Assembly (NCBI RefSeq): GCF_014873145.1 | Contig: NZ_JADBEK010000001.1 | Span: forward strand, 7,006,001 to 7,070,000 | Origin: Nonomuraea angiospora | Lineage (GTDB): Bacteria > Actinomycetota > Actinomycetes > Streptosporangiales > Streptosporangiaceae | Length of the DNA stretch: 64,000 bases | Direction of reading: 5' to 3' | In this document: positions 34,941-63,657 of the stretch, in pieces | How the letters are laid out: the number at the start of each line of letters is the position of its first letter | Position numbering within the stretch: the stretch's first letter is position 1 | Position numbers and translations under genes: made by a program | Notes under the pieces: generated by a model | Databases searched by the model: none | Seen by the model: only the letters and a program-made list of their open reading frames with translations | What the model was told of the DNA's origin: nothing

Positions 34941-35334
34941 CTGTTGCACAAGAGAGCCTTCGTATTCGCCGGACCTTGGTCTGGGGTCACCCCTTGACCA
35001 TCAGGAAGGGTGCCCCCTACGCCATCGCCAAACCCTCCCGAGCTCCGGCGCCGCAGTCGAGCTCGCGCGGGGAGACAGCGTGCCACCAACTTCTGCTGCT
35101 CACTCAGGATCTGGGGATACGTCAACCGCTGGCGCTTGTCGAACTGACTGGTCAGCCACAAGCCTATGCTGACCGCTCCCGCTGGGGCAGGTTGCCGCTA
35201 CAATCGCGGATCCCGAAGCAAATCGACTCTTCCAGCGCAGGCGAGGGATAAGCTCTTCCTCCAGTCGCTATACAAGCTATGTCTTTCACCAAGCCACTCA
35301 ATGGCGGCAAAGCAACAAGAGATGAGGATTCGGC

Positions 35335-37563
35335 ATGGACCTCATGGACTTCCACAAGCTGACAGACTTCGACTTCGAGTGTCTCTGCAAAGATCTTTTC
35401 GAGGCAGAACTCAACGTCAGGCTGGAAATCTTTACAGCCGGAGGTGATGGTGGTATCGACCTGAGGTATATGAACCGATACGGCGAGAAAATAATTATTC
35501 AATGCAAGCATTGGATGAGGAGCGGCAGAGCGAAGCTTGTTCAGCACATGCTTGACAACGAACTTCCTAAGGTGAAGAAAATCAAGCCCACGCGATACAT
35601 CATTGCATCCACAGTTGAAATGACCAAGGATGCGAAAGATAAATTGTACACAGCTTTCGATCCATTCATAGTATCAGCAAGCGACGTTTTCGGCATCAAC
35701 GAGCTATTGGCCTTGATGGCAAGCCATCCGGAAGTTATAAGGAAGCATATACGGCTCTGGCTCAACGATGTCAACATGCTGGAGGCCGCAATTTCCAGAA
35801 ACATCTTGTGGCGTTCTATGCATTTTGCTGATGATATACAGCAAACGTTGAGGACGTATGTGCCAACCACTAGCTATAGACACGCACTGAAATTGCTCGA
35901 TGCAAACCATGTATGCATCATTACGGGCGGTCCGGGAGTCGGAAAGACGACTCTGGCGCAAGTACTCAGCGCCTACTACGCCTATACAGGCTATGAGCTC
36001 GTTGCAATTTCGGAGAACATTGAAGACGCCTACCGAATGTGGAATGCCAATGCAAAGCAAGTGTTTGTCTATGACGATTTCCTGGGCCAGAGCACTCTTG
36101 AGGATAAGTTGTACAAGAACGAAGATGCTCGACTAATTGCGTTGTTGAGACGTATCGGCAGAGAACCGAACAAGAGGCTTATCTGCACAACCCGCAGCTA
36201 TATTCTGGCTCAAGGAAAGAATCGCTACGAGCGTCTTGATCGCGAAAATTTCGATCCAATTACCTGCGTTGTAGATCTAGATTCCTATGATCGAGAGACG
36301 AAAGCCAGGATTCTCTACAATCACACATTCTGGTCGACATGGCCGGCTGCAGAGAAAGCACGCCTAGCTCAGCCTGACGGCTACCGTAAGATCATCGATC
36401 ATCCCAATTTCAATCCGAGGATTATATCTGATGTGTTGGGCACATCTTACGATTCTAGTTGGGGTGATATTACAGCACAACTAGAGGCCCGCCTAAATGA
36501 TCCCACACATGTGTGGAGGCACATATTTGAAAACCAGCTTACAGAGAAGGAACGGATACTTCTCGCTACTCTATTTTCTCTAGGCGGGGAGGCGCTTCTT
36601 CCAGATATAAAGGAAGCGCTCCTATGTCATACTGACTGGGATAGTTCCCAGATGAGACGCAGTCTCCAGATACTCGATGGCACTTTCATAAAAGTATATC
36701 GTGAGCAGTCGCGCCAGTATGTGGAGTTCAGCAATCCCTCTGTGAACGACTTCGTCATCCGAAAAATGAACGACGATAACAGCCTGCTAAAACGCGTCTT
36801 GCGTACTGCACGTTCGTTCGACCAAGTTTCCAATATCTGGCTGTATCATCCTGATGCTGACGCTTGTGACCAGCCCGAAGTTGAGATCGACCTCCACCCT
36901 CTGTCTCGTGAGATCGAAGAAGCCGCGCTAGTAACTCTGGAAGCGGCGAAAGCCTCGACACACAGATTGGTCGGGTATCTGGCTATCGCGCTCGACATGT
37001 CTGACAAACTGTGCCTTCCTCGTCTTGGTGAGCGCGTTGCAGCCCACATTAGCAAGCAGGGCAGCATCTATGGCGGACGATATGAGGATATTGCAGCACT
37101 TATTAGAGCGACAGCAAGCTCTCCGAATCCACAAATTCGGAAACTTCACAAATCTGTCCTCGCAGAAGGGCTTACAGCTCTGTTCAATCGCGACCGTAGC
37201 GAGAAAGGGCTTTTCACAGCCGCTACCTGGGCGCACAGACTTGCCGAATTTGTAGATAAGGCGGTATTGCGCGATATTGACGCCCAGGCGGTAGAACGGG
37301 CCGACTACCTTATGGAGCTCTACGAATACGGCTCACCCGACGACGTGCTTGATGATGACGAGCTCGTCGCCGCATTCGAGTTTATGAGAATTTTCTCGGA
37401 TTACTATGTCCGTTGGCCCGGGGCTAGCGAAGCCATGGAAGGCTACGGCATCGATAACGTTAGCGATGAAGACAGCGAAGAAGACGAAGATATTGACCCC
37501 GAATGGTCAGACGGCCTCATTTATACCATCATGAGTTTTTTGAATCAGGAGGCGAACCCATAA
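35335..37563 (+). CDS. Mrr-like nuclease fused to nSTAND3 NTPase (defence candidate)
   Basis: A 742-residue protein. Residues 1-65 are a PD-(D/E)xK Mrr-type nuclease: GGDGGIDLR (Asp42) and IIQCKHW (Gln56-x-Lys58). A P-loop STAND NTPase follows: Walker A GGPGVGKTTLA (Lys204) and the nSTAND3 Walker B VFVYDDFLGQ (Asp247, Asp248), then CTTRSYIL as sensor. The C-terminal 350 residues are helical and end in an acidic tail. Similar nuclease-STAND fusions are switched on by phage proteins and cut DNA. Base composition is markedly poorer in GC than the host, showing recent transfer. It has its own 600-bp leader. Domains are firm; the defence role is inferred. Confidence 0.88.
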   Translation: MDLMDFHKLTDFDFECLCKDLFEAELNVRLEIFTAGGDGGIDLRYMNRYGEKIIIQCKHWMRSGRAKLVQHMLDNELPKVKKIKPTRYIIASTVEMTKDAKDKLYTAFDPFIVSASDVFGINELLALMASHPEVIRKHIRLWLNDVNMLEAAISRNILWRSMHFADDIQQTLRTYVPTTSYRHALKLLDANHVCIITGGPGVGKTTLAQVLSAYYAYTGYELVAISENIEDAYRMWNANAKQVFVYDDFLGQSTLEDKLYKNEDARLIALLRRIGREPNKRLICTTRSYILAQGKNRYERLDRENFDPITCVVDLDSYDRETKARILYNHTFWSTWPAAEKARLAQPDGYRKIIDHPNFNPRIISDVLGTSYDSSWGDITAQLEARLNDPTHVWRHIFENQLTEKERILLATLFSLGGEALLPDIKEALLCHTDWDSSQMRRSLQILDGTFIKVYREQSRQYVEFSNPSVNDFVIRKMNDDNSLLKRVLRTARSFDQVSNIWLYHPDADACDQPEVEIDLHPLSREIEEAALVTLEAAKASTHRLVGYLAIALDMSDKLCLPRLGERVAAHISKQGSIYGGRYEDIAALIRATASSPNPQIRKLHKSVLAEGLTALFNRDRSEKGLFTAATWAHRLAEFVDKAVLRDIDAQAVERADYLMELYEYGSPDDVLDDDELVAAFEFMRIFSDYYVRWPGASEAMEGYGIDNVSDEDSEEDEDIDPEWSDGLIYTIMSFLNQEANP

Positions 37564-37724
37564 CCTTCTGTTCCGTAGAGCAGGGCATCACCCTGACGAA
37601 CGTGCCTCTGGCCTGGCCATGTGGTTCATGGTGGCTGACGTCAGACGGCACGTTGCACTACTTCTGTGCTGTACTGCAGTGGCGAAACCCCACATGTCCG
37701 ACAGGCGAGGCAGCTGTAAGCTGA

Positions 37725-38564
37725 CTACTGCTCAAGGGCTTGCTGCGTCTCGACAGAAGGAAATCTTGATACTCGCTCTAGCCCTTCAGAGTTCATGGAA
37801 GAGTTCGCGCTTCTAAAGGCAGAGAGCGCAGCGACAGGATCCTTCTGAAGCGTGGTGCTGGTGTGATAGCTCTTTACTTGCGCGGCGGTTAGCTCCATCG
37901 CAAACGGGACGCCGTCGACCTTGGCGACGTACAGGTTGCCGACCAGGACAGAACCAGTGGACTCATCTTTCATGGCCTGCAACAGAGTGGCAACGGCCTC
38001 AGCAAGGGTCTTAGTGACGGCAGCTTGTGTTTCGGTATAGACCTTGTTTCGTGCGGCGGCGAGTGCGTAGTCTCCAGCCTCCTCTAGTTGTTCCTGTGTG
38101 ACCGTACGCTTGAATGCTAGGGTGAAAGCCTGCCAGAGACTGCCGTGAACTACGTCAGTTTCGTCGACGATCTCACAACCCAGTTCCTGAATGGCAATCT
38201 TAACCCGATTGAGCGACATCTCCGCGCTGGCCGAGGGCAGGTAGACGATGGCGAGAGCCTCAAAGCTATCTGGGCGCTGGAGGTCTGCTGTGCGTAGCCG
38301 ACCATATACCCGCCACAGCAGGGCTTGTAGCTGCCGCTCAATGATGGACCATCCCGTCACCGACCCGGGAGGCCTGAGATAGGCCCGGTCCGCAAGAAGC
38401 TTCTGTTGAAGTCGTATGAGGGTCGCGCTGTCGCCACCCGATCCGATCATGAAACTAGTCCCGCTCTCGGGAGGAGGTGTCAACCAGTGAACCGCCTCTT
38501 CCTCAACGACGTGGTCGCGGTCGTTGTCGATCGGTTCGAGAGCGTCAGAGGATCCCTGCGTCAC
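37725..38564 (-). CDS. Hypothetical AICE cargo protein, 279 aa
   Basis: A soluble protein with an acidic N-terminus (ALEPIDNDRDHVVEEEAVHWL), then a mixed alpha/beta middle (FEALAIVYLPSASAEMSLNRVKIAIQELG) and a helical C-terminal half (AVTKTLAEAVATLLQAMKDE). It lacks signal or membrane segments and I recognise no family. It converges on the Mrr/nSTAND3 gene with about 160 bp between. Composition is intermediate between host and the AT-rich cargo. Function unknown. Confidence 0.6.
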   Translation of the reverse strand: MTQGSSDALEPIDNDRDHVVEEEAVHWLTPPPESGTSFMIGSGGDSATLIRLQQKLLADRAYLRPPGSVTGWSIIERQLQALLWRVYGRLRTADLQRPDSFEALAIVYLPSASAEMSLNRVKIAIQELGCEIVDETDVVHGSLWQAFTLAFKRTVTQEQLEEAGDYALAAARNKVYTETQAAVTKTLAEAVATLLQAMKDESTGSVLVGNLYVAKVDGVPFAMELTAAQVKSYHTSTTLQKDPVAALSAFRSANSSMNSEGLERVSRFPSVETQQALEQ

Positions 38565-54975: not shown

Positions 54976-55051
54976 GGGGCGTTAGCTCAATTGGCAGAGC
55001 TGCGGACTTTTAATCCGTAGGTTCCGGGTTCGAGCCCCGGGCGCCCTACCA
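54976..55051 (+). tRNA. tRNA-Lys(TTT), CCA encoded
   Basis: Acceptor GGGGCGT, T8-A9, D arm GCTC, anticodon stem CGGA/TCCG with loop CTTTTAA (TTT), T arm CCGGG-TTCGAGC-CCCGG, and CCA at 55049-55051. The first acceptor pair is G-T. An integrase gene begins 195 bp downstream, so its 3' end is a likely integration site. Confidence 0.95.
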
Positions 55052-55067
55052 CTCATAAGTGCAGGTC

Positions 55068-55079: not shown

Positions 55080-55245
55080 TTTGAGACGGCGGCACGACCC
55101 GGCGAGACCGGCTCGAAGATCATGTTCCCCCGATGTTCCCGCATCTCACCACGCGATGGCGAAAGGTCCGTTTGTTGATGCGAGTCGTGGCCGTCTGTGC
55201 CAGCTGTTTCCTTCACCATGCGTCCTTGGACCGTCAGGGGGAGTT

Positions 55246-56658
55246 GTGGCGCGGATCATCGAACGCATGGCTAAGAACGGCGCGAGATCGTGGCTGGTGA
55301 AGTGGCGTATAGGTGGGGGAAGAGGCGGAAAGGAAGACTTCGAGACCTGCTACGAGCGGCAGATCGCCGAAGACTTCGCGACCTTGGTCGAGCTCAGCGG
55401 CGAGAATCGTCCGCACGGCTACCCCAAAGGCTGCCACGGCATCGAGGATCCGCACTTCGACGGCACCCTCGACGCCGACATGCCGACCTTCGAGCAGTAC
55501 GCGCGCCACGACTATGCCACCCGGCTCGGCGCCGCCCCCACTCAGCGCTTCGTCTACCTGACCGAGGCCGAACGGCATGTCTTCCCCTTTTTCGGCCGCC
55601 TGCCCCTGGATCGGGTCACCCGTCGAGTGCTGCGCGAATGGGCGGAATGGATGCTCGCCAAACCATCCGCACGCAACGAACACCAGCCCACCCCTCCCAT
55701 GTCGGATGAGCAGGCGGCACGACGATGGGCACGAACCAACGACATCGCGGTCAAGAAGACCGGACGCGTGCCGCCCGGCGTGCTGCGGCAGTGGCGGGAC
55801 GCAGGCTCTCCCCGACCCGCACCACCGGCCCCCGGGACGCTGTCCCCGGCCACAGCGGCGAAGGTTTATCGGGGCGCGATCAAGCCGGTCTTCAAGGCGG
55901 CCATGCAGCAGGGTGAGAACGGCGAGCCACCATTTCTCAGCTCATCTCCTTGTGACGGTTTTCGCCTGCCGACTGGCCCGGTGACTGCCCGGGCCATCCT
56001 GTACGGCCCCGAGGTCGGCACCTACCTCCAAGCAGTCCACGACATCGACCCTGATACCGCGTTGTTCATCGTTACCGAGATGGCCACCGGCCTCCGCTGG
56101 GGCGAGATCGCCGGGCTTCATGTATCCGGCCTGGATCCGGTCGGCTGCGTGATCCATGTAACTCAGACGTACGCCTATTTGCTGGACGAGACGACCGGCC
56201 GCCGTCGATGGCAGCTCAGGCTCTACCCGAAGGGTAAGAAACAGCGCGACGTACCCATCTGCCGTGAGCTGGCAACACTGTTGACGCGCCATGCAACCGG
56301 CAAGAATCCTGGTCAGCCTCTCTTTCAGGGACACACAGGCGGCTATATCGATTACGCCAACCAACGCAACAACGTGCTGCAGCCCGCCCTCGAACGCGCT
56401 CACCAACGCGGCTTGGCCAAGCACATCACCCCGCACGCACTTCGACACACCATGATCACCATGCTCCGCGACGGCGGCGTCGCACCAGGAGTCATGCAAC
56501 TCATCGCCGGACACGAGTCCTACCAGACAACCGCGGGATACTCCGATCAGCACACCCCTGCCCAACGAACGCTCATCCTCAAGTCCGTTCACCCCGTCAT
56601 CAAGGCAGCGGGATTCCTGTTCAGCAATCCAGAACACGATCGCGAAGCCCCACCGTAG
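55246..56658 (+). CDS. Tyrosine recombinase with embedded Lsr2-like domain
   Basis: 470 residues starting at GTG 55246 behind AGGGGGAG. The catalytic domain has Arg in TGLRWGEIAGL, His-x-x-Arg in HALRHTMITML, His in GHESYQTTAGYSD and the Tyr nucleophile there. Between the core-binding domain and the rest, residues about 157-187 read AARRWARTNDIAVKKTGRVPPGVLRQW. This follows the Lsr2 C-terminal pattern (xxRxWAxxxGxxVxxRGRIPxxVxxxY), with TGR in place of RGR. Lsr2 binds AT-rich minor grooves and silences foreign DNA, so this integrase may target or read AT-rich DNA. It probably recombines at tRNA-Lys. Confidence 0.9.
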   Translation: MARIIERMAKNGARSWLVKWRIGGGRGGKEDFETCYERQIAEDFATLVELSGENRPHGYPKGCHGIEDPHFDGTLDADMPTFEQYARHDYATRLGAAPTQRFVYLTEAERHVFPFFGRLPLDRVTRRVLREWAEWMLAKPSARNEHQPTPPMSDEQAARRWARTNDIAVKKTGRVPPGVLRQWRDAGSPRPAPPAPGTLSPATAAKVYRGAIKPVFKAAMQQGENGEPPFLSSSPCDGFRLPTGPVTARAILYGPEVGTYLQAVHDIDPDTALFIVTEMATGLRWGEIAGLHVSGLDPVGCVIHVTQTYAYLLDETTGRRRWQLRLYPKGKKQRDVPICRELATLLTRHATGKNPGQPLFQGHTGGYIDYANQRNNVLQPALERAHQRGLAKHITPHALRHTMITMLRDGGVAPGVMQLIAGHESYQTTAGYSDQHTPAQRTLILKSVHPVIKAAGFLFSNPEHDREAPP

Positions 56659-56719: not shown

Positions 56720-59395
56720 ATGGCGGAAATCGCGCAGGATAGATCCGTGGACTTGTGGCCCGAATGGAACGACCCTGTCGAGCTACGAATGCGGTTGGAC
56801 GCCGCCTTGGTCGAGATCGCAGAGCTGCGTGAGGAGAACGGCCGGCTCAAGCAACTTCTCCGGCAGCGAGCCTCAGCTGCGGGCGATCGCGACCTCGTCG
56901 ATCCTGATCAGATCTCCGCTGTCCCCGTCAACCTGCCGCAGGACGGCTTGCCGTACGCGGACGCGTCGTCGCCTCCGTCCGAGAAGCTCGCCTTGTTCAA
57001 GGCATTGTTCGTCGGCCGCCGCGATGTGTACGCGACCCGCTTCTTCAGCCGCAAGTCTGGCGGGCACCGGTGGAGCCCCGCGGAGAAGGAGTTCTGGCGA
57101 AAACAGGATGACGCCGAGCGGGAGTTTCTGCCGCTGACAGATGAGATTCTCATCGCGCACCTGAGTCGACCCGCCGACGGGCGCGACTCCCATGTCGGGC
57201 TGTATCCGATGTTGCCCGACGACACTTGCCGGTTGCTGGCGTGCGATTTCGACGGCGCGGGCTGGCAGGGCGACGCCGCCGCCTACGCGGAAGCCTGTAC
57301 GCGGGCGGGTATCCATACGGCGGCGGAGATCTCCCGGTCCGGAGCCGGCGCCCACGTGTGGATGTTCTTCACCGAGCCTGTCCTGGCCGCTTCGGCACGT
57401 GCCATCGGCATGGGACTGTTGCGGGAGGCGATCGACCGGCGGGGGACGATGTCGCTGGCCAGCTATGACCGGCTGTTCCCCGCGCAGGACTCGCTGCCGG
57501 TCAAGGCGGCGGCTCGGTTCCGGTTCGGGAATCTGATCGCGCTGCCGTTGCATGGTGGTAGCCGGGAGCAGGGCACAACGCTGTTCTGCGACCCGCACAC
57601 CTGGCAGCCGTATGAGGATCAGTTCGCGTTCCTGTCCGGTGTGCGTCGGCTACGCCCGGTCGAGGTGGATGCGCTGGTGAAGGGGTTTGGCCAGATCGAC
57701 GCCGGGCCGTCGACGTGGGGCAGGTTGCCGAGCAAGCCGCGTTGGGGCGCGCTGGGAGTCGCTCCTCAACGGGTGCACGCGCAACTTGGTGCCATGCTGG
57801 CGATCTCGACCGACAGCCTACCTGCGCCGCTGATCGCCGCCCTCAAGCACCTGGCCGCCTTTCACAACCCTGAGTTCTACCGGCGGCAGTCGATGCGGTA
57901 CTCGACCTTCGCCACCCCACGCTTCGTACGCTGCTTCGACGACAGCGACCCCGACTGGCTACGACTCCCGCGAGGGCTGGCGGAGCAAGCGGAACATCTG
58001 ATTGCGGCAGCGGGCGGCGCCATCGAGATTGCCACCGCGATCTCGGAGCATGACCCGATCATGGTGCGTTTCACTGGCGAGCTGACGAACGTACAGACCG
58101 AAGCGGTCACCGCGATGGCCAAGCACCTCACGGGAGTCCTGATGGCGCCGCCCGGTGCGGGCAAGACCGTAATGGCCTGTGCACTGATCGCCTGGCACCA
58201 AGTACCAACTGCGATCATCGTGAACCGCGCCGAACTGCTCGACCAATGGAAGGAACGGCTGACGACGTTCCTCGACCTTGACGCAACGCAGGTGGGCGCC
58301 AAGGGCAAGGGCAAGGACAAGCGACACGGTGTCGTCGATGTCATCATGCTGCAGTCCGTAGCCCACCGCGACGCCGACCCGTCGCTACTGGACGCGTACG
58401 GCATGGTCATCGTCGACGAATGTCACGCGGTCGGTGCTCCGGCCGCCGAGGCCGCCATCCGTCAGATGGCCGTGAAGCGCTGGATCGGGCTATCGGCGAC
58501 GCCGTATCGGGCCGACCAGATGGACGCGCTCATCACAATGCAGTGCGGACCGATCCGACATGAGATCACCCCTGAGGTGTCGTTCGCCCAGCGACTCATC
58601 GTTCACACCACCGGCTTCAGCACTGAGGAGATCGGATACGACGGCGCCTCCTTCCAAGCGATCTATGGCGAACTGGCCGCAGACGACACCCGGACCGCCC
58701 AGATCGCCTGCGACGTCGCGGACGCGGCACGCCGGGGTAGGAACAGCCTGCTCTTGACCAATCGAATGGAACACCTCCAATGCCTGGCCGCAGCCCTGGA
58801 GGGCAAGGGCGTGGCCGCGACGCTCCTGCACGGGCAGCTCAGCGCCGCAGAACGCGACCGAGTCCGCGCCCGCCTGACCGATGCCGAGGCACGACCGCTG
58901 GTCCTCCTGGCCATCGACAAGGTCGCAGGTGAGGGCTTTGACCTGCCTTGGCTGGATGCCCTGTTCCTCGCGATGCCGATCTCGTTCAAGGGAAAGGTGA
59001 TCCAGCACGTCGGCCGGATCATGCGAGAGGCCGCCACCAAGCACGACGTCGAGGTACATGACTATCTGGACGCACAGATCCCACAGCTGGAACGCATGTA
59101 CGGCAAGCGGCGCCGCACCCTCACCCGCCTCGGCTTCACCACCACAACACCCGGCTCAAATGAGCACCCACCGACCACCGACGCTTCCCCGCGCCCTTCC
59201 TCGCCAAGGACACCAGCAGAAATCACACGGCCACGCGACCAGCAGCCGACCCCATCGCGGGTGCGCGCGTGGGCTCGCGAACAAGGACTTCCGGTCGCTG
59301 ACCGCGGCAGACTCCGCCCCGAGATCTGGGAAGCCTGGCATGCCGCCGCCGGCCCCATGCCCGAGGAAACCCCTGACTCGACGAAAACGTCGTGA
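56720..59395 (+). CDS. TOTE-type primase-helicase with C-terminal Lsr2-like domain
   Basis: 891 residues. An N-terminal coiled coil (VEIAELREENGRLKQLL) precedes an archaeo-eukaryotic primase domain, with catalytic DFD in LLACDFDGAG (176-178) and SGAGAHVWMFF. A superfamily 2 helicase follows: Walker A APPGAGKTVMA (about 475), DECH in VIVDECHAV (about 563), QHVGRIMRE. The tail (about 845-876) reads RVRAWAREQGLPVADRGRLRPEIWEAW, an Lsr2 C-terminal module with the RGR AT-hook. TOTE systems are transposon and phage conflict loci that usually carry a C-terminal nuclease; none is seen here. The likely role is defence or priming on foreign DNA, which is inference. Confidence 0.85.
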   Translation: MAEIAQDRSVDLWPEWNDPVELRMRLDAALVEIAELREENGRLKQLLRQRASAAGDRDLVDPDQISAVPVNLPQDGLPYADASSPPSEKLALFKALFVGRRDVYATRFFSRKSGGHRWSPAEKEFWRKQDDAEREFLPLTDEILIAHLSRPADGRDSHVGLYPMLPDDTCRLLACDFDGAGWQGDAAAYAEACTRAGIHTAAEISRSGAGAHVWMFFTEPVLAASARAIGMGLLREAIDRRGTMSLASYDRLFPAQDSLPVKAAARFRFGNLIALPLHGGSREQGTTLFCDPHTWQPYEDQFAFLSGVRRLRPVEVDALVKGFGQIDAGPSTWGRLPSKPRWGALGVAPQRVHAQLGAMLAISTDSLPAPLIAALKHLAAFHNPEFYRRQSMRYSTFATPRFVRCFDDSDPDWLRLPRGLAEQAEHLIAAAGGAIEIATAISEHDPIMVRFTGELTNVQTEAVTAMAKHLTGVLMAPPGAGKTVMACALIAWHQVPTAIIVNRAELLDQWKERLTTFLDLDATQVGAKGKGKDKRHGVVDVIMLQSVAHRDADPSLLDAYGMVIVDECHAVGAPAAEAAIRQMAVKRWIGLSATPYRADQMDALITMQCGPIRHEITPEVSFAQRLIVHTTGFSTEEIGYDGASFQAIYGELAADDTRTAQIACDVADAARRGRNSLLLTNRMEHLQCLAAALEGKGVAATLLHGQLSAAERDRVRARLTDAEARPLVLLAIDKVAGEGFDLPWLDALFLAMPISFKGKVIQHVGRIMREAATKHDVEVHDYLDAQIPQLERMYGKRRRTLTRLGFTTTTPGSNEHPPTTDASPRPSSPRTPAEITRPRDQQPTPSRVRAWAREQGLPVADRGRLRPEIWEAWHAAAGPMPEETPDSTKTS

Positions 59396-59491
59396 CGCGG
59401 GCGGATGCTGCCCGTCGGCGAGAGTAAAGCTCGGCCAGCAGTTACGCTGAAGGGGCAACACAGGCACCGCGACGGAGGGAGTCGAGCGACG

Positions 59492-59737
59492 GTGAGCGTG
59501 GACCTCGAACACGAGCCCCTTCATGACCTCGCCCGCCGGGTCATCCGGCTGGCCGAGGAAACCCAGCACGCCGCTCAAGTGCTCGAACGCCGCCTGGATG
59601 CGCTGGAACACCGCCCCGAAGCCGCCGGCCGAGCCGAACGCATCCTGAGCATCGCCGCCGGCATGCGAACACACCTCGGTCGAGACCGACTGTCCGTTGA
59701 AGATCTGTACGACCCGGACACGGGTCTTCCCGCATGA
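59492..59737 (+). CDS. Antitoxin of a VapBC-like pair
   Basis: 81 residues from GTG 59492, with GGAGGGAG before it. Two helical parts: LHDLARRVIRLAEETQHAAQVLERRL and a C-terminal GRDRLSVEDLYDPDTGLPA, which would wrap the toxin. I do not see the usual ribbon-helix-helix or AbrB fold. Assignment is mainly from position: it overlaps the PIN-domain gene by 4 nt (ATGA), as antitoxins do. Confidence 0.75.
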   Translation: MSVDLEHEPLHDLARRVIRLAEETQHAAQVLERRLDALEHRPEAAGRAERILSIAAGMRTHLGRDRLSVEDLYDPDTGLPA

Positions 59738-60123
59738 TCATCGATTCCAGCGCCATCATTGCCGTCATCAACGGTGAGCCAGAGGCCACCCAATTCGCCC
59801 ACACCATCGCCGCAAACGTGTGCCGCATCTCGGCCGTCAACTACGTCGAAGCGGCCATCGTGGCAGACAACCGTGGTGAGGCCATGCGCAACGCCTTCGA
59901 CACGCTCGTTGATGAGATGGGCCTTATTATCGAGCCGGTAACACCCCATCAGGCGAGGATCGCGCGCCGTGCGTACCAGACCTACGGCAAGGGCAACAAT
60001 TCCAAGGCCAAGCTCAACATGGGCGACTGCTTCGCCTACGCCCTCGCCAAGGACCTCGACCAGCCCCTGCTCTTCAAAGGCGAGGACTTCCCGCACACCG
60101 ACATCACTCCCGCACAGCCCTGA
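59734..60123 (+). CDS. vapC: VapC-like PIN-domain toxin
   Basis: 129 residues. PIN acidic residues are in place: Asp4 (IIDSSAIIAVI), Glu39 (NYVEAAIV), Asp98 (NMGDCFAYALA) and Asp118 (FKGEDF). These bind magnesium or manganese for single-strand RNA cleavage. VapC toxins usually cut tRNA or rRNA and are held inactive by the partner antitoxin. It may stabilise the island. Intact and well coupled. Confidence 0.93.
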   Translation: MIIDSSAIIAVINGEPEATQFAHTIAANVCRISAVNYVEAAIVADNRGEAMRNAFDTLVDEMGLIIEPVTPHQARIARRAYQTYGKGNNSKAKLNMGDCFAYALAKDLDQPLLFKGEDFPHTDITPAQP

Positions 60124-60334
60124 CGGTCGTCCGGCATTCCAAGATTCGATTTTGAATGACGGAACTCCCTTTCACCGCTAGATCAAAAATCTCAGGTGAT
60201 TCGTCCACGCCCCCTTGTACGAGCACCCGCCAAGCGCTGCCATGTGCAGCGCCTGCTTAACTGCATGAGAATCACACAGGTGCGTGGACCAATGAGCTGA
60301 ATGGGGCGACTCGGTTGAACTACAGGTGCAGTTG

Positions 60335-60540
60335 AACGCCACTGAATGCCGCGTTGGCCGAGAGCGCAGAGCTATGAGGAGAAACGGCGAGCTACTTCTG
60401 CCGCTAACCACGTCCTCGGGCGAGCGCAGTACCGTGGGGTCCTGCCGGGACTTCTCCATGCCCGTCGATCGGCCGCAGGATGGCTTGTCGTATGCCGACT
60501 TTTCATCGTCTTCATCCGAGGAGAAGCCACGGATGGAGGC
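60335..60540 (+). pseudogene. Broken second copy of the primase-helicase 5' end
   Basis: The DNA matches 56800-57000 of the primase-helicase gene with gaps: GCCG-TTGG-CGAGA, CGCAGAGCT and GAGGAGAA match the coiled-coil start. The peptide PVDRPQDGLSYADFSSSSSEE aligns with PVNLPQDGLPYADASSPPSEK. Frameshifts and the loss of everything downstream show it is a relic. It lies in the 60124-60906 gap, which is otherwise empty and partly AT-richer. Confidence 0.7.
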
Positions 60541-60906: not shown

Positions 60907-63657
60907 ATGGACGAGTCCCATCACCAGGCCGGGGCCAGATCATCAGCCGGTGGGGCGCGCGCTGCGCGTGGTCTCACCTTCCAGGCTCAGGTTTTCGCTT
61001 GGTGGGCTGTGCGCGCCATCGTGGAGATGCCGCTGACCGACCTCGGGCTCGGCGCCGCCGTCCGGATTGAAGCGGTGGGGTGTGAGACCGGGCTCCCCGT
61101 CGACGATGTGGGCGTCGCCGTGTCCGGCGGCGGGTTCATCCTCGTACAGGCGAAGGCCGGGATGAGACGGCTGGACGCGCAGACCGAAGATCTGGTGAAG
61201 GCCATCGACCAGATGGTGCGCGCCTTCGTCGAAGGTATCCACACGAGTGCGCGTGTGCGCCCCGTCGACCTCTCGCGCGACCGGCTCGTGATCGCCACGA
61301 ACCATGATGGGAGCCGCGCCTTCGACCAGCTGGGCATCGTGCTCCTGCGCCTCCGTGGACACCCGGCCGACCTCCCTCTCCGGGCAGCGGCGCCGACGAT
61401 CGCCCAGCGGAGGGCGCTCGAAACCTTTGTCGAGATCATCGAAACTCGTTGGACGGCCATCGTCGGACGCAAGCCCTCTGATTCCGACTTGCGAGCGTTG
61501 CTCCGGTGTGCCGAGGTCATGCGGCTGGATCTCAAGGAGCCCGACGGGACCGACCTCTTCCGCAGCGAGCAGGCCCTGCGCGCGGCTCTGGGTGACTCTC
61601 TCATCGACGAGCCCTTCAGCAAACTCGCCGGGCGCGGCAGCGGAGCCACGGCGGCCCAGCAGTGGTGGCGGCGGGAAGAGTTGGTTCAGACCGTGCTTCG
61701 CGAGGAAGGGTCGATGCAGCCTGCGGCTGGCCCGCGATGCAACCGCCTTCCTGTCCTCCCTCAGCCCTACGTGCGCCGAGGCGACCACGGTCTCCTCGGC
61801 CCCGGACCGATGGCGGAGTGTCTCTGCATCGCTGTCACCGGTGGCCCCGGCTTGGGGAAGACCACTCTCGCCATCGACATGGCCAACAATGCTGCCCAGG
61901 ACTTCCCCGACGGGCAGTTGTTCGTCGACTTCCGAGGCTTCGGTCCGACCGCTCCCATGTCATCCGCCGAGGCGGTCGAGGTGCTCCTGGAACAGATGGG
62001 CGAGGCCGATGTGGCCGCAGGAAAGGACTCGGAAGGCCGCCGCCTGCACTATCTGGACGCGGTCGAGGCGAGGCGGTTCGTCATCGTCATGGACAACGTC
62101 CGGGACAGCGAGAGCATCCTCCACCTGCTCCCGCGCCACGGGCCCTCCGCCATCATCGTCACCAGCCGCACCAGGTTGGGGACCCTCCTGCGGAGAACCG
62201 ACGTGACGCACCTTCACCTGGCTCCACTACCAACTCACGAATCCAGGGATCTGCTGATCCGGCACATAGGCGCCGACCGATCAGCCGCCGAGCCCGCCGC
62301 TATCGCCACCATTCTGGCCGCCTGCAGCGGCAATCCTCTAGCCCTGGCAATCGCCGGATCCCACATCCGGCACCTGCCTGAGCTGTCACTGGACCAAATC
62401 GTGTCCGTTTTGACCGACGCCGACAGCCGACTGGACTTCCTCGACCTGCACGAGTCGAACTCCGCGCTCCGCACCGTCTTTTCCTGGACGTATCACGCAC
62501 TTCCTACCGAGTTACAGGAATTCTTCGTCCTGGTCGGCTCGGCCCCGGGCCCTGACATCGACACCTCAGGAGCCGCCGCGCTCGCCAGCCTAGAGGACAC
62601 CCGAGCAGGGTTGGCCCTGCTACGCCGGTTACGCCATTTCCACCTGCTACAGGAGAATGCGCACAACGGCTTCCAGATGCACGAGCTCCTCCGTGACTAT
62701 GCCCTCTCCCTCTGCCGTGGGGATCGGCGTCTCCAGAACGTCCACGACCGTGCCTGCGAAAGGCTCATCAACCACTACGCCGATCTGGCCGCCGCCACGG
62801 GCCCCGATACCCGTCTCGCTAGCCAGCACTCGCCGCGCTTCCTCGCCGCCGTGCGATACGCCGAGGAACACGGCCTGGAGAGCAAGGCCAGGACTATCGT
62901 GGACTCTCTCATCGAGAACATGTGGTACCACGGGCGATGGAACGACTGCGTGACGATGTTGCGCTCGATCACGGACGACCCATCGAAGCCTGAGGATCCG
63001 GAGATCCGGTCCTACTTTCTCCGCCAGCTGGCCATCACCCTGCGCCGGCTGGGAGCACACGCCGAGAGCGTCGAGTACGGTCGGCAAGCCTTGTCCACGC
63101 TGGGGCCGGGAAGGTCGGCACGCGCGGAAGCCGACTGCCGCTACGTCCTGGCGGTCAGTCTTGCCTACGCGGAGGATCACGAGGCGGCCCTGGAGCAATA
63201 CCACCTCGCCGCCGACGGATTCCGCGAAACTGGCGCCGAAAGCGGGCACGCGGATGCCCTGAACGGCATCGGATGGAGCCTGGCCATGCGGGGAGAACTC
63301 CAGGAGGCCCTGATGTACTGCACACGAGCCGCCGACCTACACGGCGAGCTGAACGTCCCCAACAGCCGGGCAGCCGATCTTGACAGCGTCGCTTGCATCT
63401 ACCAGTTGCTCGGTGATCACAAGGCCGCGCTCGGCTATTTCGAGCAATGCCTTCGCCTGTACAGGGAGATCGGCTACCGCGCCAACGAGATCCGTACGCT
63501 GGACAGCATGGGCGACAGCGCGCTGGCGTCAGGCGACCCGAACAGCGCCGTCGAGCACTGGCTCCTCGCCATCGCCGTTCTTGAGGACATCGGTCACGGG
63601 GACACCGACCAGGTCCGCGAGATACGGGCTAAGGAGGCGGCATTATTCCAGAAGTAG
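60907..63657 (+). CDS. PD-(D/E)xK nuclease/NB-ARC/TPR fusion (bacterial NLR-like)
   Basis: About 916 residues if started at ATG 60907; upstream in-frame starts exist and the ribosome binding site is unclear. The N-terminal 150 residues resemble Cap4-type dsDNA nucleases: LPVDDVGVAVSGGGFILVQAKAG, with Asp and Gln-x-Lys. NB-ARC follows: Walker A TGGPGLGKTTLA (about 310), Walker B RFVIVMDNV (about 389), SRTR, and CSGNPLALAIAG (about 473). The C-terminal 220 residues are TPR units (EDHEAALEQYHLAADGFRETGAESGHADALNGIGWSLAMRG). This is the layout of STAND immune proteins: TPR sensing, NB-ARC oligomerisation, nuclease killing. Defence role is inferred; domains are clear. Confidence 0.85.
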   Translation: MDESHHQAGARSSAGGARAARGLTFQAQVFAWWAVRAIVEMPLTDLGLGAAVRIEAVGCETGLPVDDVGVAVSGGGFILVQAKAGMRRLDAQTEDLVKAIDQMVRAFVEGIHTSARVRPVDLSRDRLVIATNHDGSRAFDQLGIVLLRLRGHPADLPLRAAAPTIAQRRALETFVEIIETRWTAIVGRKPSDSDLRALLRCAEVMRLDLKEPDGTDLFRSEQALRAALGDSLIDEPFSKLAGRGSGATAAQQWWRREELVQTVLREEGSMQPAAGPRCNRLPVLPQPYVRRGDHGLLGPGPMAECLCIAVTGGPGLGKTTLAIDMANNAAQDFPDGQLFVDFRGFGPTAPMSSAEAVEVLLEQMGEADVAAGKDSEGRRLHYLDAVEARRFVIVMDNVRDSESILHLLPRHGPSAIIVTSRTRLGTLLRRTDVTHLHLAPLPTHESRDLLIRHIGADRSAAEPAAIATILAACSGNPLALAIAGSHIRHLPELSLDQIVSVLTDADSRLDFLDLHESNSALRTVFSWTYHALPTELQEFFVLVGSAPGPDIDTSGAAALASLEDTRAGLALLRRLRHFHLLQENAHNGFQMHELLRDYALSLCRGDRRLQNVHDRACERLINHYADLAAATGPDTRLASQHSPRFLAAVRYAEEHGLESKARTIVDSLIENMWYHGRWNDCVTMLRSITDDPSKPEDPEIRSYFLRQLAITLRRLGAHAESVEYGRQALSTLGPGRSARAEADCRYVLAVSLAYAEDHEAALEQYHLAADGFRETGAESGHADALNGIGWSLAMRGELQEALMYCTRAADLHGELNVPNSRAADLDSVACIYQLLGDHKAALGYFEQCLRLYREIGYRANEIRTLDSMGDSALASGDPNSAVEHWLLAIAVLEDIGHGDTDQVREIRAKEAALFQK

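Follow-up and report, generated by a model that had tools for sequence, protein, structure and literature searches.

A predicted Cap4-like nuclease, NB-ARC and TPR fusion beside a pPIWI-RE gene set on a tRNA-Lys integrative element of Nonomuraea angiospora

The gene, its neighbours and the element

The stretch analysed here is a window of 64,000 nucleotides from Nonomuraea angiospora, whose genome is a single contig of 13.09 Mb. Near the end of the window lies a gene for a protein of 916 amino acids (aa) that joins a predicted Cap4-like nuclease domain to an NB-ARC region and tetratricopeptide repeats (TPRs), in the manner of an NLR receptor. It is carried by an integrative element inserted at a tRNA-Lys gene. 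The genes that follow are, in order, a Ser/Thr kinase gene on the minus strand, PDDEXK, pPIWI_RE_Y, the DinG-like helicase pPIWI_RE_Z and the pPIWI-RE protein itself, with X, MID and RNaseH domains. The four genes after the kinase are recognised by PADLOC (PprPDDEXK, E value 1.4e-96; PprRE, 7.5e-20; PprDinG, 1.8e-209; PprPIWI, 1.1e-191) and by Pfam (PF18156, 1.1e-16; PF18155, 5.7e-29; PF13111, 2.7e-73; PF18157, 7.5e-22; PF13032, 5.3e-71), and the Y restriction endonuclease (REase), Z helicase and pPIWI-RE genes stand in the order expected of such a system. The kinase has VAIK, HRD, DFG and APE motifs. A preliminary description made from the window alone had proposed an NLR-like immune receptor. 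Its domains are indeed those of such a protein, but the picture of a stand-alone receptor is incomplete, since the gene's position beside the pPIWI-RE genes, which lie just outside the window, is conserved.

This conservation was assessed in five distinct loci with flanking sequence: our own and those of N. solani (L012/L137, counted once), N. jiangxiensis (L013/L034, counted once), Actinomadura sp. J1-007 and A. rubrisoli. The count leaves out the close orthologues P0002-P0007 and three metagenomic ones. In all five (three Nonomuraea, two Actinomadura) the kinase, PDDEXK, Y and Z helicase genes have an identical order, and the kinase gene is convergent with the NLR-like gene and divergent from PDDEXK. 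The PIWI gene comes next each time, with only its start inside the two Actinomadura stretches. Our copies share 34-57% identity with those of Actinomadura (47-60% for the PIWI piece). The presence of neighbouring pPIWI-RE genes in related species suggests that the NLR-like switch belongs to that system.

Exact 48-bp tRNA-Lys repeats on both sides (Table 1) define an element of about 19.7 kb with all the named genes inside it; attR begins 340 bases beyond the PIWI gene. The tRNA-Lys island and the primase-helicase neighbour of the preliminary description are confirmed. Of its toxin-antitoxin pair, the PIN gene is well supported, while the antitoxin is presumed from its position and its 110-aa open reading frame (ORF) has no convincing family match. 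The N. jiangxiensis copy sits at the same tRNA-Lys and is preceded by similar chromosomal genes, and in the stretch fetched for it the right-hand attachment repeat was not found. The N. solani copy lies between two attachment-like repeats; the right-hand one has one mismatch, and neither is in a called tRNA gene.

Table 1. Features of the tRNA-Lys element and domains of the NLR-like protein (positions in the window)
Feature	Position	Strand	Evidence
tRNA-Lys (TTT), integration site	54976..55051	+	ARAGORN
attL, 48-bp 3' part of tRNA-Lys	55005..55052	+	exact repeat
Tyrosine recombinase (integrase) of the element	55081..56658	+	Pfam Phage_integrase, E 1.3e-14
AEP-TOTE primase-helicase, variable cargo	56720..59395	+	Pfam AEP-TOTE, E 6.6e-69; ResIII
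110-aa ORF overlapping the PIN gene, presumed antitoxin	59405..59737	+	position only
PIN-domain protein, presumed toxin	59734..60123	+	Pfam PIN, E 2.4e-15
Degenerate copy of AEP-TOTE N-terminus, upstream of the NLR-like gene	60278..60499	+	tblastn, 38% over residues 8-81, E 5e-8
Cap4-like nuclease-NB-ARC-TPR protein, 916 aa	60907..63657	+	domain searches and structure model
Predicted Cap4-like PD-(D/E)xK nuclease domain, residues 14-265; D66/D67, Q81-x-K83	60946..61701	+	
NB-ARC and winged-helix region, residues 306-605; Walker A 312-319, MHE 591-593	61822..62721	+	Pfam NB-ARC, motifs, model
TPR helices, residues 636-916; 13 helices at 636-894	62812..63654	+	Pfam TPR_12, model
attR, exact 48-bp copy	74703-74750, extrapolated, outside the window (G000:C1:7080703)		exact repeat

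The degenerate AEP-TOTE copy has a stop within its frame. Similar remnants are found at L013:9275-9607 and L012:9317-9694, which suggests an earlier rearrangement at this spot. AEP-TOTE is present only as pieces in N. solani and N. jiangxiensis. In the Actinomadura stretches neither AEP-TOTE nor PIN gave a match; one of these two stretches includes only 2.6 kb before the gene. The AEP-TOTE protein matches the Lsr2 DNA-binding domain (E 7.1e-9, above the Pfam cut-off), and the integrase matches it weakly (E 9.3e-5, below the cut-off). Elsewhere in the window, G+C content falls to about 0.50 at positions 35001-38000 (0.58-0.75 in the other 2-kb steps), possibly another acquired segment.

The NLR-like protein and its two halves

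For the N-terminal domain (N-domain), structure prediction gives a restriction-type core fold like that of solved Cap4-family nucleases, and D66/D67, Q81 and K83 are invariant in all 54 aligned N-domain rows. Walker A, Walker B, GLPL and MHD-like motifs are all present in the protein together with the repeat sensor, as in NB-ARC STAND proteins; Pfam finds both NB-ARC and TPR_12, with about six TPRs. The full-length model (mean predicted local distance difference test score, pLDDT, 80.3; predicted template modelling score, pTM, 0.56) comprises a nuclease, an NB-ARC with winged helix and 13 TPR-like helices, with an arrangement of domains that the pTM leaves uncertain. The top Foldseek rows for this model include a STAND-TPR protein (6mfv), Avs3, plant resistosomes, Apaf-1 and TPR proteins such as LGN. 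The proposal that one protein unites nuclease, NB-ARC and TPR parts, with the nuclease at the N-terminus, has therefore held up.

Residues 1-290 have no Pfam match, none of 15 aligned N-domain members matches a Pfam nuclease family at E<=1, and no Pfam DNA-binding model matches the N-domain of the window protein (0 families at E<=1). The PADLOC LmuA, HamA and Cas11a models reach best E values of 0.008-0.016 in one or two of the 15 members and give weak hints only.

A protein search in which the 8000 best candidates were scored found at least 53 proteins with the N-domain. Together with the window protein these fall into C-terminal groups of 22, 11, 10, 3, 3 and 3, plus two singles. TPRs occur in some members of the group of 22. 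The group of 11 has the nuclease-NB-ARC-TPR architecture and includes the window protein. The domain order, which the preliminary description had taken to be perhaps undescribed, is not unique: ten further proteins share it, and where they have been named at all the name is only 'tetratricopeptide repeat protein'. One of the two single types is a fusion of the Cap4-like domain to a TIR domain (P0017, 509 aa, on a contig of 1.6 kb). To judge from these sequences, the Cap4-like N-domain is a swapped module.

It is also rare. Genome searches found it in at least 9 of the 298 family genomes, in 5 of 54 from the genus, in at least 7 of 394 from the class and in at least 1 of 396 from the phylum. 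The samples overlap and each count includes our own genome. Except in the genus search, scoring was limited to the 6-8 best candidates of each genome, so that the family, class and phylum figures are lower bounds. Our genome contains no second copy (one match among 49 candidates scored). There was no match in phage records and three weak ones (29-31% identity) in plasmid records.

When the NB-ARC half is searched alone, seven near orthologues rank first. Among the 104 non-orthologous matches listed (E<=1e-40), 76 carry BTAD (PF03704), the mark of SARP/AfsR regulators, and the NB-ARC part itself matches the NCBIfam models AfsR (E 7.7e-47) and HaaT (E 7.7e-57). This raises the question of whether the protein is simply an AfsR-type regulator of secondary metabolism. 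We consider this very improbable. The scores are far under the curated cut-offs (159.8 against 1430 for AfsR, 193 against 1125 for HaaT), the protein has no BTAD or Trans_reg_C match and a predicted nuclease fold instead, and the gene lies within an element carrying a pPIWI-RE system. The preliminary description had named a non-nuclease N-terminus, or identity as a known SARP- or AfsR-like regulator without nuclease residues, as grounds for giving up its proposal. Neither applies: the N-terminus is predicted to fold as a nuclease and keeps conserved residues, and no SARP domain was found. The NB-ARC half, however, belongs to the AfsR/SARP type. The protein thus resembles an AfsR-type switch in which a defence nuclease would have replaced the DNA-binding output domain, if we have the direction of the exchange right.

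The slot beyond the kinase

A search for PF13032 in the 298 family genomes found 59 to be positive. From 67 pPIWI match rows 59 loci were fetched, several of which end at contig ends; eight were left out as fragments or as below the cut-off. The kinase gene lies head to head with PDDEXK in 22 of the 59 loci, including our own and that of N. jiangxiensis. Two further loci are not counted among these 22: L094, where a methyltransferase and a kinase are arranged differently, and L109, whose kinase is elsewhere.

The position on the far side of the kinase (the slot) is occupied by an N6_Mtase protein in 14 of the 22 loci, by an NB-ARC-TPR protein in six (our own included) and by a lectin-like protein in one (L084); in the last (L066) it is off the contig. 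The methyltransferases were identified by tblastn with the L073 protein as query (the others being 43-88% identical), and Pfam confirmed four of the 14. By eye they have a helix-turn-helix (HTH)-like start. Their loci are L065, L067, L068, L070-L076, L078, L080, L081 and L087, the last with the methyltransferase in the other orientation. Such a pairing of the head-to-head kinase with an N6_Mtase protein resembles the kinase-methyltransferase pairs of Pgl/BREX. A methyltransferase and an NB-ARC gene were found together in none of the 22 stretches (E<=1e-5). The lectin-type gene lies at L084:2861-7156, and this locus may be a pPIWI-RE locus with no slot partner.

The six NB-ARC slot genes encode two Cap4-type proteins (our own and N. 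jiangxiensis), one bare NB-ARC-TPR protein (L097) and proteins of the SARP type. L079 and L103 have BTAD (L103 was labelled by eye and confirmed afterwards), and L077, which runs off the contig, is labelled SARP because the C-terminal portion that can be seen, some 347 aa, shares 88% identity with L079. Such SARP-NB-ARC-TPR proteins in the same slot would be expected if the protein regulated the pPIWI-RE operon, its Cap4-like domain binding or marking DNA without destroying it. A pPIWI-RE group that is more distant points the same way: upstream of PDDEXK, by a few kb, it has HTH-NB-ARC-TPR genes (L102:2898-5186, L104:2928-5336 and L107:414-2750). These occur in three of the four loci examined, with other genes in between (a DEAD-box helicase gene among them in both loci tested), and their presence may be due to chance, NB-ARC genes being common. 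A minus-strand gene of L107, taken by eye for a caspase, proved on Pfam analysis to be a DEAD-box helicase. We regard a purely regulatory role as distinctly unlikely, because none of the 54 aligned rows departs from D, Q and K in those columns and the N-domain of the window protein lacks a Pfam DNA-binding match.

A stronger alternative is that the protein is an autonomous abortive-infection NLR and that the pPIWI-RE genes are merely fellow cargo of a defence island, acting independently. The N-domain is highly modular, with its 53 matches spread over several unrelated C-terminal groups. Kinase or Ppr genes were found in none of 15 other flanked N-domain loci (tblastn E<=1e-5; L016, L017, L122 with L123, L126-L136 and L139), several of which are weak N-domain matches and some of which are cut by contig ends. 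Other cargo of the element, for example AEP-TOTE, is variable. Where the N-domain is attached to an NB-ARC-TPR body, however, the linkage is present in five of five fetched loci, which come from two genera and agree in slot and orientation. This slot is also occupied by an NB-ARC-TPR protein that lacks the nuclease. Independent action therefore seems to us unlikely, though it is the most serious of the competing explanations.

A helicase tree of 43 rows comprises the head-to-head loci, another three NLR loci, and 18 chosen from the loci that have helicase matches but lack a head-to-head kinase. This is a tree of the quick kind, with a long-branch warning at its deepest join. One clade of 10 (Shimodaira-Hasegawa-like approximate likelihood ratio test, SH-aLRT, 99) unites the NB-ARC loci with a locus whose slot is off the contig, and the methyltransferase loci form a separate clade (SH-aLRT 100) that contains L084 and L066. 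All nine visible slots in the clade of 10 hold an NB-ARC-TPR gene. Four of these loci (our own, L012, L014 and L015) were included because of their NLR gene; the other five were picked up through PIWI, and all five have one. A PDDEXK tree of 38 rows recovers a methyltransferase group (100/100) and a group of the Cap4 and bare loci (100/100). A single clean origin of the NB-ARC slot is allowed by the helicase tree and is not supported by the PDDEXK tree.

Proposed role and relation to known systems

We favour, with a little more than even confidence, the view that the NLR-like gated nuclease is a component of the pPIWI-RE defence system on this element. The attachment repeats favour it by enclosing the NLR-like, kinase and pPIWI-RE genes as a set and ending just after PIWI. 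By analogy with STAND proteins, the TPR array would sense a molecule linked to infection, and the NB-ARC would then exchange ADP for ATP and oligomerise. Assembly would bring the Cap4-like domains together and so activate them to cut DNA, which would destroy the phage genome or kill the infected cell. The neighbouring kinase would tune the switch as AfsK does AfsR. ATP activates AfsR, which is also the substrate of a kinase encoded in the same cluster, and phosphorylation by AfsK raises its ATPase activity and yields more oligomers (PMC10936776). Gate and effector would have arisen by output-domain exchange in an AfsR-like switch, and coupling to the PIWI machinery is part of the proposal.

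A number of points weigh against this view. The nuclease assignment draws on a predicted structure, conserved residues and similarity to PDC-M54A; a search of PDB sequences with the single N-domain gave no match, and a profile of 15 N-domains gave four (best E 0.15; proteasome and histidine kinase) that were rejected as chance. Nuclease, defence and switch activity are all functions that we infer. The same account of AfsR regards phosphorylation by AfsK as probably not the activation trigger, so that a tuning role for the kinase is the most that the analogy supports. The kinase also accompanies the methyltransferase clade and is not NLR-specific, and the L097 relative without an output domain indicates that the association can do without the nuclease. 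These genomes are rich in NB-ARC genes, with 51 matching stretches in our own. The loci are related, and the slot counts are not independent. In the PDDEXK tree the SARP and Cap4 NB-ARC loci are not united (one group in 2% of bootstrap trees), so that NB-ARC recruitment may have happened twice. Finally, defence by pPIWI-RE is a prediction (Burroughs et al. 2013, PMC3702460), and the PIWI-RE protein studied in PMC10991935 is reported to function in DNA replication and in cell division, the word 'phage' never occurring in the text.

Because one slot holds either a methyltransferase or a switch, two ways of sparing the host are suggested. There may be two gated forms of pPIWI-RE sharing a kinase: in one, the N6-methyltransferase would label self DNA; in the other, the NB-ARC-TPR switch would license attack only on infection, its output having been exchanged between SARP and a killing nuclease. 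One lineage would then record the passage from regulating immune genes to acting directly as an NLR effector. We offer this tentatively and think it somewhat doubtful, given the relatedness of the loci, the predicted status of pPIWI-RE defence itself and the presence, at another place in our own genome, of a 42% homologue of the slot methyltransferase, which also counts against the component role proposed above. Defence by pPIWI-RE has been predicted since 2013, and a methyltransferase-or-switch slot would be a direct, testable answer to how attack on the host is avoided. The exchange of SARP for a nuclease would likewise provide a natural experiment on the possible origin of bacterial NLR effectors in AfsR-type regulators.

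All parts of the system are of known kinds; of their combination, with pPIWI-RE joined to NB-ARC proteins, we found no description among the papers listed by our searches of the open-licence literature. The three-gene pPIWI-RE (Ppr) system, as presented in PMC3702460, has the same order of REase/Y, DinG-like Z helicase and pPIWI-RE found here downstream of the kinase and PDDEXK. To this the element adds PDDEXK, the divergent Ser/Thr kinase and the convergent Cap4-NB-ARC-TPR gene. PDDEXK is already known as a partner, since PADLOC has a PprPDDEXK model; in 12 of 27 passages of PMC3702460 kinases appear only in connection with eukaryotic Mediator and a STAND ATPase partner is not mentioned. AP-ATPase effectors with TPRs, as well as nuclease effectors, are described in other conflict systems by Kaur et al. 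2020. AfsR with its kinase AfsK is alike in the type of NB-ARC-TPR body and in the nearby Ser/Thr kinase gene, and differs in having SARP where the predicted nuclease fold is found here and a metabolic regulon in place of an element with pPIWI-RE. Compared with Avs3, Lamassu LmuA, Hachiman and Cap4, residues 1-290 of the window protein have no Pfam match and the sensor is a short TPR array; it has QxK where HamA of Hachiman has D-GEXK (PMC12799240). Residues 14-227 match the first 220 or so positions of PADLOC PDC-M54A (E 2.5e-35). The PDC-M54A models span 1621-1657 positions with another body, and only the N-domain (positions 2-219 of 1657) is common to both.
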